A stretch of 59,750 bases of DNA from Alphaproteobacteria bacterium (GTDB lineage Bacteria; Pseudomonadota; Alphaproteobacteria; SMXQ01): contig SMXQ01000008.1 of assembly GCA_004356985.1 (NCBI GenBank), positions 1-59,750 of the forward strand, written 5' to 3'. Made by a program: the position numbers and the translations under genes. This document shows positions 15,973 through 23,241 of this stretch, in pieces. The notes under the pieces were generated by a model. It did no database searches, had not been told where the DNA came from, and worked only from the letters and a program-made list of their open reading frames with translations. Positions within the stretch are counted from its first letter, which is position 1. Every line of letters starts with the position of its first letter.

Positions 15973-16821
15973 ATGACGACACAGGCGGAAAAGGCCGAAC
16001 GCTTCGCCGCCTTGCATCGGCGGCCCGGCATCCTGGTGCTGCCCAATGCCTATGACGCCGCCAGCGCCGCCATCTTCGCCGATGCCGGGTTCAAGGCGAT
16101 CGCCACCACCAGCGGCGGCTGTGCCTTTTCCCTCGGCTTCCGTGACGGCGAGCACATCACCCGCGACGCCATGGCGGCCATCGTCGCGCGCATCTGCGCC
16201 GCCGTCGATCTGCCGGTGAGCGCGGACATGGAGGCCGGATACGGCGCCACCCCGGAAGCCGTCGCCGATACCGTCCGCGCGACCATCGCCGCCGGCGCGG
16301 TGGGCATCAACATCGAAGACAGCACCAAGACGGGCCCCCGGGAGCTGCTCGAATTCGATTTGGCGGTCGCGCGAATCCGCGCCGCCCGCACGGCGGCATC
16401 GGATGCCGGGCTTGCCATGGTGATCAACGGGCGCACCGATGTTTATTCGGTGGCCAGCGGACCGGTGGGCGGCGGGGGAGGGGCGGCCCTGTTCCATGAA
16501 GCGAGTCGCCGGGCCAACGCCTATCTCGAGGCGGGCGCCGATTGCGCCTTCATCATCGGCGCCCGCGACGGTGAACTGATCGGCCGGCTTGCCGCGGCCA
16601 TCCATGGGCCGCTCAACGTCCTTGCCGGGGCCGGCTCGCCATCGGTGGCCGAATTGGAAGCTCTCGGCGTCAAGCGGGTGACGGTGGGCAGCGGCTTCGC
16701 CAAGGCCGCCTTGACCGTGGTGAAAAAAGGCGCCGAGGAACTGCGGGACAAGGGGACCTTCGAGTTCACCCGCGGCGCCCTGGGCCAGGCCGATATCCAC
16801 CGCATCCTGGGCGGCGGCTAG
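15973..16821 (+). CDS. Isocitrate lyase/PEP mutase superfamily protein
   Basis: LPNAYDAASAAIFADAGFKAIATTSGG; VSADMEAGYG; GAVGINIEDSTK; INGRTDVY. Confidence 0.9.
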   Translation: MTTQAEKAERFAALHRRPGILVLPNAYDAASAAIFADAGFKAIATTSGGCAFSLGFRDGEHITRDAMAAIVARICAAVDLPVSADMEAGYGATPEAVADTVRATIAAGAVGINIEDSTKTGPRELLEFDLAVARIRAARTAASDAGLAMVINGRTDVYSVASGPVGGGGGAALFHEASRRANAYLEAGADCAFIIGARDGELIGRLAAAIHGPLNVLAGAGSPSVAELEALGVKRVTVGSGFAKAALTVVKKGAEELRDKGTFEFTRGALGQADIHRILGGG

Positions 16822-16860
16822 AGCATTTTCCAACCAAATTGAATCCATTTGGTTGGAAAG
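16820..16860. repeat. Palindromic intergenic repeat (solo unit), possible bidirectional terminator
   Basis: TAGAGCATTTTCCAACCAAATTGAATCCATTTGGTTGGAAAG: 13-bp perfect stem TTTCCAACCAAAT / ATTTGGTTGGAAA with a 7-nt loop. Confidence 0.8.
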
Positions 16861-16954
16861 TTCTCTTGGCCCACTTGCCCTTGCCTTTGGGCGTGCATCG
16901 GCGGGCGGAGTTGCTAAACTCCGGCGCGACCGGAGACCCAAGGAAAGACCAACA

Positions 16955-20271: not shown

Positions 20272-21165
20272 TTATTCCCCGCCATCGGGGTTTGCCAACA
20301 GGTCGATCAGGGACGAGGTGTCCCAGCGCCCGCCGCCGCGTTGGTGGATGCGCCCATAGAAGCCATCGACGATTTCCGTGACCGGAAGCGCCGCGCCGTT
20401 GGCATCGGCCTCGTCGCGGCAGATGCCGAGATCCTTGCGCATCCAGTCCACCGCGAAGCCGAAGTCGAAATCACCGCGGATCATGGTCTTGGCGCGGTTC
20501 TCCATCTGCCACGATTGGGCGGCGCCCTGGGCGATCACGTCGATGACCTTGTCCATGTCGAGCCCCGCCCGGGCGCCGAAATTAAGCGCCTCGGACAGGC
20601 CCTGCACGAGGCCGGCGATGCAGATCTGGTTGACCATCTTGGTGAGCTGGCCGGCCCCCGCCGGGCCCATCAGGGTCACCGCCTTGGCATAGGCCTTCAT
20701 CACCGGCTCGGCGCTGGCGAAGACCGCCGCCTCGCCCCCCACCATGATGGTGAGCCGGGCCCCTTCCGCCCCCGCCTGGCCGCCGGACACCGGCGCGTCC
20801 AGGAAGCCGATCCCCCGCCCCTTGGCCGCCGCCGCGAGCTCGCGGGCCAGTGTCGCCGAGGCCGTGGTGTGATCGACGAACACCGCCCCCGCCGCCATGG
20901 CGGCGAAGGCCCCGTCTTGGCCCAGGGCGACCTGGCGCACGTCGTCGTCGTCGCCGACGCAGGCGAAAACCACATCGGCGCCCTTGGCCGCCGCCGCCGG
21001 GCTCATGGCCTTGGCCCCGCCATGGGCGGCGACCCAGGAATCGGCCTTTGCCGTGGTTCGATTGAACACGGTGATCCCATGGCCCGCCGCCGCCAGGTGG
21101 CCCGCCATGGGATCACCCATGACACCGAGGCCGATAAAGGCCAGTTTGTAAGTGCTTGGCGCCAT
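20272..21165 (-). CDS. NAD(P)-dependent beta-hydroxyacid dehydrogenase (3-hydroxyisobutyrate dehydrogenase family)
   Basis: FIGLGVMGDPMAGHL; FLDAPVSGGQAGAEGARLTIMVGG; GAGQLTKMVNQI. Confidence 0.93.
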   Translation of the reverse strand: MAPSTYKLAFIGLGVMGDPMAGHLAAAGHGITVFNRTTAKADSWVAAHGGAKAMSPAAAAKGADVVFACVGDDDDVRQVALGQDGAFAAMAAGAVFVDHTTASATLARELAAAAKGRGIGFLDAPVSGGQAGAEGARLTIMVGGEAAVFASAEPVMKAYAKAVTLMGPAGAGQLTKMVNQICIAGLVQGLSEALNFGARAGLDMDKVIDVIAQGAAQSWQMENRAKTMIRGDFDFGFAVDWMRKDLGICRDEADANGAALPVTEIVDGFYGRIHQRGGGRWDTSSLIDLLANPDGGE

Positions 21166-21247: not shown

Positions 21248-21512
21248 TAGAGTACTTCCGGGTTAAATTGACCCATTTGACCGGGATGATTTTTCCCCAA
21301 GGCTAGGCGCGTGTCGCATGGCGATGCGGGGCATCGGCAAAGATACGCAACGACGCCTTGGGGGAAAAGCACCCGGCCTACGGTGGGGCTCATGGGCTTC
21401 CAGGGTGCGTTGCGACCCTCGCCCGATGCGGTGCATCGCGCTTCGAACCGCGCCTACCCTGGAAGCCCATGAGCCCCATCAAATTGATTCAATTTAACCC
21501 GGAAGTACTCTA
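21248..21512. mobile_element. MITE/REPIN-like nested palindromic element with 24-bp terminal inverted repeats
   Basis: TIRs 21248-21271 TAGAGTACTTCCGGGTTAAATTGA and 21489-21512 (exact reverse complement). Internal arms: 21291-21303/21355-21368 and a 23-bp perfect pair 21384-21406/21456-21478. No ORF assigned inside. Confidence 0.8.
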
Positions 21513-21520
21513 GGGGGCGC

Positions 21521-21546
21521 AAAGAAAGGGCCGCGAAACGCGGCCC
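21521..21546 (-). terminator. Rho-independent terminator of the groESL operon
   Basis: Minus strand: GGGCCGCG TTT CGCGGCCC followed by TTTCTTT, 31 nt downstream of the groEL stop. Confidence 0.85.
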
Positions 21547-21576
21547 CTTCCCTTACACGTTCGTTTTGGCGGCGGG

Positions 21577-23241
<1,665 letters not shown>

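Follow-up and report, generated by a model that had tools for sequence, protein, structure and literature searches.

Introduction

Among the small repeats that populate bacterial genomes, MITEs with IS630 ends represent an already known kind of element, and IS630-derived MITEs are treated in a review of bacterial MITEs (PMC10969869). Several other described repeats deserve comparison. The CIR repeats of Caulobacter (Chen and Shapiro 2003, J Bacteriol 185:4997, cited in PMC10969869) are reported to be organised as inverted repeats and to include a GANTC site within one repeat, and RIME (Rhizobium-specific intergenic mosaic elements) go back to Osteras et al. 1995 (cited in PMC2573895 and PMC2873474). 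The QMITE1 and QMITE2 elements of Coxiella burnetii are MITEs that lie near gene 3' ends, fold strongly as RNA and in some cases yield small RNAs; QMITE2 has direct repeats of 7-11 nt and carries a GTAG REP, while QMITE1 was reported as unique to Coxiella (PMC5896051). Outside the MITEs, the put RNA of HK022, small and composed of two stem-loops, works on RNA polymerase in cis.

Here we analyse a 265-bp element found in the window, a 59,750-nucleotide stretch of an alphaproteobacterial genome. It resembles the IS630-derived MITEs in being short and non-coding, with terminal inverted repeats, a TA duplication, many copies and no transposase of its own. It differs from them by a conserved twin-hairpin interior, which is also found with the ends of other transposon families.

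The element and its setting

The element sits between groEL and a 3-hydroxyisobutyrate dehydrogenase-family gene, both encoded on the minus strand (Table 1). Its outer ends are perfect over 24 bp and 91% complementary over 32 nt (21247-21278/21482-21513). Two inner pairs lie between them, one of 23 nt with 100% complementarity (21384-21406/21456-21478) and one of 20 nt with 85% (21284-21303/21355-21374). Apical CGATGC-GGG-GCATCG and CGATGC-GGT-GCATCG are both present, as are CGCAACG and CGTTGCG segments. Folded as DNA, the element reaches -102.7 kcal/mol versus -45.1 +/- 3.7 for dinucleotide shuffles (z = -15.4; 0 of 200 shuffles match), a strength far outside chance expectation, and the nested palindrome is thereby confirmed.

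Table 1. Coordinates of the element, its parts and its neighbours in the window
Feature	Position	Strand	Remarks
Whole MITE	21248..21512	.	265 bp, counting the TA at both ends; 21248-21249 and 21511-21512 are the duplicated target TA
Left terminal inverted repeat	21248..21271	+	IS630-type TAGAGY end; sequence TAGAGTACTTCCGGGTTAAATTGA
Hairpin A of the twin core	21280..21378	sense +	Internal loops TAGGC / AACGAC, apical CGATGC-GGG-GCATCG; R2 97.8 bits, E 2.5e-25; covariation
Linker separating hairpins A and B	21379..21381	.	3 nt
Hairpin B of the twin core	21382..21480	sense -	Inverted paralog of A; R2 96.2 bits, E 7e-25
Right terminal inverted repeat	21489..21512	-	Perfect inverted copy of the left repeat
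groEL terminator-like hairpin (context)	21528..21547	-	GGGCCGCGAAACGCGGCCCC; outside the element, between it and groEL; kept in relative G001, which lacks the element
groEL (Cpn60; context)	21577..23217	-	ORF; PF00118, E 1e-74
3-hydroxyisobutyrate dehydrogenase-family gene (context)	20272..21165	-	ORF downstream of the element; PF03446 and PF14833
End-only short form of the same family	16819..16867	+	Two ends, no core; a PEP-mutase-family gene takes its stop codon from the first TAG

A MITE with IS630-type ends

A search of the host genome with the element returned 56 matching places. Of these, 7 are near-full copies (91-100% identity), several others are longer or incomplete, and many are mere fragments; the genome also holds end-only forms of about 48 bp. 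Further matches were found in a congeneric genome (G003, 31) and in two genomes of a sister genus (G004, 29; G008, 23). The sister-genus elements have their interior in common with the host element, while their outer 20 bp or so are mostly different (TAGAGCGGTTCTYGGTAGATAGGAA). No close relative of the window element was found in plasmid and phage collections.

Empty sites were sought in congeners by joining the flanks of 13 host copies with a single TA. A clean single-TA empty site was recovered in G003 for a 265-bp copy (L007; GAAACCAC[TA]GATATAGGG), and equally clean sites were found for a 407-bp copy (L016) and two 48-bp forms (L030, L035). As for the window's own site, the groEL-dehydrogenase neighbourhood occurs without the element in family relatives, whose spacers do not permit a base-level alignment. 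The target is YTAR: C or T precedes the TA in 35 of 37 elements with TAGAGC ends, and G or A follows it in all 37. Being short, non-coding, dispersed in multiple copies and bounded by terminal inverted repeats, with target duplication and empty sites, the 265-bp element is a MITE.

Some host copies contain further short repeats. One of about 25 bp (GTCATGCGMAGCGTGCATCCGCACGAC) is nested in L008, L010, L012, L016, L017 and L066, on both arms of one stem in some copies (elements of 318-407 bp) and in tandem in others. Another short palindrome (ACCTTCCGGCCCATTTGAACCACTTGGCCGGAAGGT) adjoins L002 on its left flank and L010 on its right, as if elements could possibly cluster or insert side by side.

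At 265 bp the MITE is too short to encode a transposase; the resident IS630-family element of the host genome takes about 1,054 bp. This resident (G000:C78, L079 683-1738) has perfect 16-bp ends (CTAGAGCGGTTTCAAT), and both of its ORFs match NF033545 transpos_IS630. Its ends begin CTAGAGC like those of the MITE, a likeness limited to the first few bases. IS630 relatives across Alphaproteobacteria, about 1,054 bp long, mostly have C-TAGAGC...GCTCTA-G termini (hyphens marking the element boundary), and one in another genome (L244) ends in TAGAGCATTTTCCGATC, near the TAGAGCAYTTTCCRAC of the MITE family. We infer that the MITE was probably moved in trans by an IS630-family transposase, movement itself not having been shown. 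Which IS630 was responsible remains undecided, because the resident copy shares only the first few end bases. The IS5-type DDE_Tnp_1 transposases of the host genome (L097, L098) were rejected as a source, as their ends do not match. A REPIN/RAYT reading was set aside on the grounds that ends, TA duplication and target fit IS630; no search for a RAYT gene stands behind this rejection.

An earlier note, made from the sequence alone, had described a nested palindrome with perfect 24-bp terminal inverted repeats next to the groESL terminator, and had proposed a non-autonomous mobile element. The palindrome is upheld by complementarity and fold, the setting by the adjoining groEL and terminator-like hairpin, and the MITE by its many copies, its single-TA empty sites and an IS630 with matching ends in the host genome. 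The note had called for a parent transposase sharing the ends, and the resident IS630 resembles the MITE ends over their first few bases only. Its REPIN-like alternative is not supported, since ends and target match IS630.

A twin-hairpin core shared by elements with different ends

The interior of the MITE consists of two hairpins of about 99 nt each, A read on the plus strand and B on the minus strand, and the same covariance model fits both. Since they match one model on opposite strands, A and B are ancient head-to-head (inverted) paralogs and not independent stems. The order on either strand is the sense hairpin followed by the antisense one in 57-59 elements, with a spacing of usually 3-6 nt; the sole case of opposite order falls between neighbouring elements. 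With this head-to-head order, a transcript from either side meets the sense hairpin first. Similarity between the two hairpins within a single element (0.53) does not exceed that seen across elements (0.54), so the duplication predates the spread of the core and the arms have not been homogenised. Versions with a single hairpin also occur in Kiloniellales (L155, L169, L212) and outside Alphaproteobacteria (L305, L357), some in elements of about 158 bp with TACCAA ends and others without obvious ends.

A search with a degenerate hairpin pattern retrieved at least 112 stretches. Nearly all were from Alphaproteobacteria, including Rhizobium, Neorhizobium, Shinella, Hoeflea, Nitratireductor, Roseibium, Kiloniellales, Rhodospirillales and Hyphomonadaceae; hits in Acinetobacter (L185), Coriobacteriia (L196) and Nocardia (L227) were excluded from the alignment as probable chance matches. 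With a covariance model built from 30 diverse copies (R2), the core was detected in at least 39 of 337 sampled alphaproteobacterial genomes, covering 36 of 253 genera. A second model (R3), run on 399 genomes of the phylum, found it in at least 43; of these, 29 lie outside Alphaproteobacteria, in ten families. These counts are lower bounds, only 10-13 candidates having been scored per genome.

The same core is enclosed by many types of ends. The two main ones are TAGAGC, with a TA duplication, and TACCAA, with a TNA duplication: an identical trinucleotide flanks both sides in 38 of 51 TACCAA elements, versus 13.8 expected. This trinucleotide is only ever TAA, TTA, TGA or TCA (for example in L129, L138 and L144), all of which are stop codons on one or the other strand. 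Other ends around the core are TAGCCCG-TTTCTCA, TAGTGYCCTRTCCC, TTAGGAGCCTGTCTGAG, AGAGCCTATTTCAG, TAGCACCCACTATCAGG and CTAGTACCTCTGAGCAG. End-only palindromes of about 50 bp exist for both main types. An autonomous insertion sequence with TACCAA ends was sought in 12 genomes; the pairs of ends examined there lay about 50 or 240-400 bp apart, without any close to 1 kb. Because the same cassette occurs with many other ends, the twin-hairpin core is not a by-product of IS630 and constitutes a shared passenger module.

Stop codons and gene context

As the element starts with TAG and targets TA, its insertion into TAA or TAG keeps a stop codon. For ORFs of at least 100 codons, the element end falls exactly at an in-frame stop in 24 of 37 TAGAGC elements, versus 14 and 5 in the shifted frames. 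No clear enrichment was seen for TACCAA elements (21 of 51, versus 18 and 15). In the survey of gene context, genes were called crudely, by ORF and GC3. Copies were seen in every gene context, divergent genes included, and many lie between same-direction genes.

A possible alternative reading of this distribution is that the element acts as a bidirectional terminator, or as an mRNA 3'-end stabiliser, for the genes running into it. In its favour, 34 of 79 facing gene 3' ends coincide exactly with the element boundary, and convergent settings form the most frequent class (21 of 70). Against it, the hairpins of the window copy have no trailing U-run and groEL has its own terminator there; an intrinsic terminator does not need conserved internal loops; the many copies between same-direction genes are close to the next start; and the TA or TNA target alone accounts for the location at stop codons.

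Covariation and evidence for an RNA

The pairing of the core is supported by three sequence sets. In a MAFFT alignment (A1), 82.4% of cells pair, versus 64.5% when shuffled, with 221 two-sided changes versus 78. The corresponding values are 91.5% versus 60.6% and 1682 versus 487 in alignment A2, and 92.0% versus 53.5% and 392 versus 122 in a held-out set of 28 matches from 22 loci outside the building of R2. Sliding the partner columns of the held-out set by one to three positions abolished the signal. The shuffle controls ignore the relatedness of the sequences. Unpaired positions are more conserved than paired ones (1.02 versus 0.60 bits), and the loops are the same outside Alphaproteobacteria: (U/A)AGGC, CGCAG, CAAG and CGCAACG.

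On the motif-sense strand, with the register set by the loop motif, there are 121 G-U pairs to 42 A-C mismatches, where composition alone predicts a ratio of 1.3-1.4. In the same elements the counts are 137:47 for the left hairpin and 128:45 for the right one, and 62:12 in the held-out loci. A mutational bias of one strand cannot explain the excess in both hairpins, because they point in opposite ways. The end repeats, with 40 G-U versus 37 A-C, served only as a check on the counting, their orientation being arbitrary. We infer from the excess on each hairpin's own sense strand that the core has probably been selected as a folded RNA. Our confidence is moderate, since the excess is weak in A1 (1.74, versus 1.34 by composition) and model-fitted alignments are biased towards standard pairs. 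In Rfam 15, the window region gave only sub-threshold miRNA-like matches, and among 14 core-holding loci no match fell on the elements.

Two other explanations of the pairing should be weighed here. Palindromes are prone to hairpin-templated repair, and the element might be an ordinary MITE with an inert interior whose pairing is kept by such repair or by gene conversion between arms. In L008 and L017 the nested inserts occupy the two arms of a single stem, as arm-to-arm copying would produce. We nevertheless hold this explanation to be unlikely, given the stronger conservation of unpaired loops than of stems, the sense-strand G-U excess in both hairpins, the presence of the core in elements with different ends and the absence of homogenisation between hairpins of one element.

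It is also possible that the core works as DNA, its hairpins being extruded from single strands or supercoiled DNA and bound by transposase, replication or nucleoid protein, which would aid the spread of the element. A general mobility aid would accompany many end types, as the core does, and the end-only forms look like shortened derivatives of the long ones. However, a sense-strand G-U preference is not what one would expect if both strands of the structure served as DNA, and the 48-bp end-only copies also occur at clean empty sites; the core is therefore dispensable for movement.

Returning to the earlier note, its inner stems, apical hairpins and CGCAACG/CGTTGCG segments held, while its "two large independent stems" failed, since A and B are inverted paralogs. 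Its suggestion of a selected structure was borne out by strong compensatory covariation. None of the outcomes that it had named as refuting (a single copy, no empty-site polymorphism, no covariation in the arms) was met. It had not seen that the core is common to elements with other ends, nor that the structure appears to act at the RNA level.

A proposed role in insertion tolerance

Taken as a whole, the account that we consider likely is that of an IS630-moved MITE carrying a conserved RNA cassette with a role in insertion tolerance, in which transposition, RNA selection and the role itself are inferred. An IS630-family transposase would recognise the TAGAGY ends, insert the element at YTAR and duplicate the TA. 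The target TA would often lie within a stop codon, which the TAG start of the element would rebuild, and copies may thus settle harmlessly at gene 3' ends; of this step, the enrichment at stop codons is shown. In either orientation of insertion, an entering transcript would yield the sense hairpin first and the antisense one second. The RNA of the core would then engage the transcription or RNA machinery, for example by countering polarity or by fixing the upstream mRNA end, making the insertion tolerable in transcribed but untranslated DNA. This last step is inferred and has not been shown.

Sequence does not discriminate among anti-polarity, 3'-end formation or protection, and processing as possible roles of the RNA. 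Besides the caveats given above on the G-U excess, the shuffle controls and the resident IS630, two points speak against the main account: to our knowledge there is no transcript, binding partner or phenotype for the core, and the copies between divergent genes make a role in transcribed DNA less obvious.

A bolder reading would see in the core one ancient RNA module of head-to-head hairpins, a passenger of MITEs from several unrelated transposase families across Proteobacteria, providing insertion tolerance via transcription or RNA decay. We lean slightly against it. If true, it would amount to a general insertion-tolerance RNA of small mobile elements.

Comparison with known systems

The Coxiella QMITE1 and QMITE2 are, like the window element, MITEs that combine strong RNA folding with a position near gene 3' ends, but the direct repeats and GTAG REP of QMITE2 set it apart; this comparison does not rest on aligned sequences. 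The CIR repeats share with our element the character of alphaproteobacterial intergenic repeats of more than 100 bp, and about half of the TAGAGC elements have a GANTC near an end. GANTC is nevertheless depleted in the elements (24 versus 38.3 expected for TAGAGC, 10 versus 46.7 for TACCAA), and an association with GANTC/CcrM was rejected, the sites being rarer than expected in both types. RIME are likewise abundant palindromic intergenic repeats, of rhizobia, whereas the present core extends beyond Alphaproteobacteria. The put RNA of HK022 provides, by analogy only and with no sequence relation tested, a working model for an RNA that eases the passage of transcription. In our case, by contrast, a transposable element carries the hairpins, the second of which is antisense to the motif.

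As far as we searched, an interior common to MITEs of different transposon families is not described in PMC10969869 or PMC5896051. The novelty of the shared interior is provisional: CIR and RIME are the likeliest earlier sightings, and their sequences were not compared.

The usual view of MITEs is that they are insertion sequences that have shrunk and whose interiors carry no meaning. In the present case, one MITE interior is conserved across a phylum, independently of the mobilising ends, with covariation of the RNA type and a hairpin symmetry under which orientation does not matter. Should the RNA prove functional, it would offer a compact, orientation-independent device for study and would help to account for the persistence of many insertions beside and between genes. 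We predict that certain intergenic repeats known for a long time, among them possibly CIR or RIME, are members of one superfamily.
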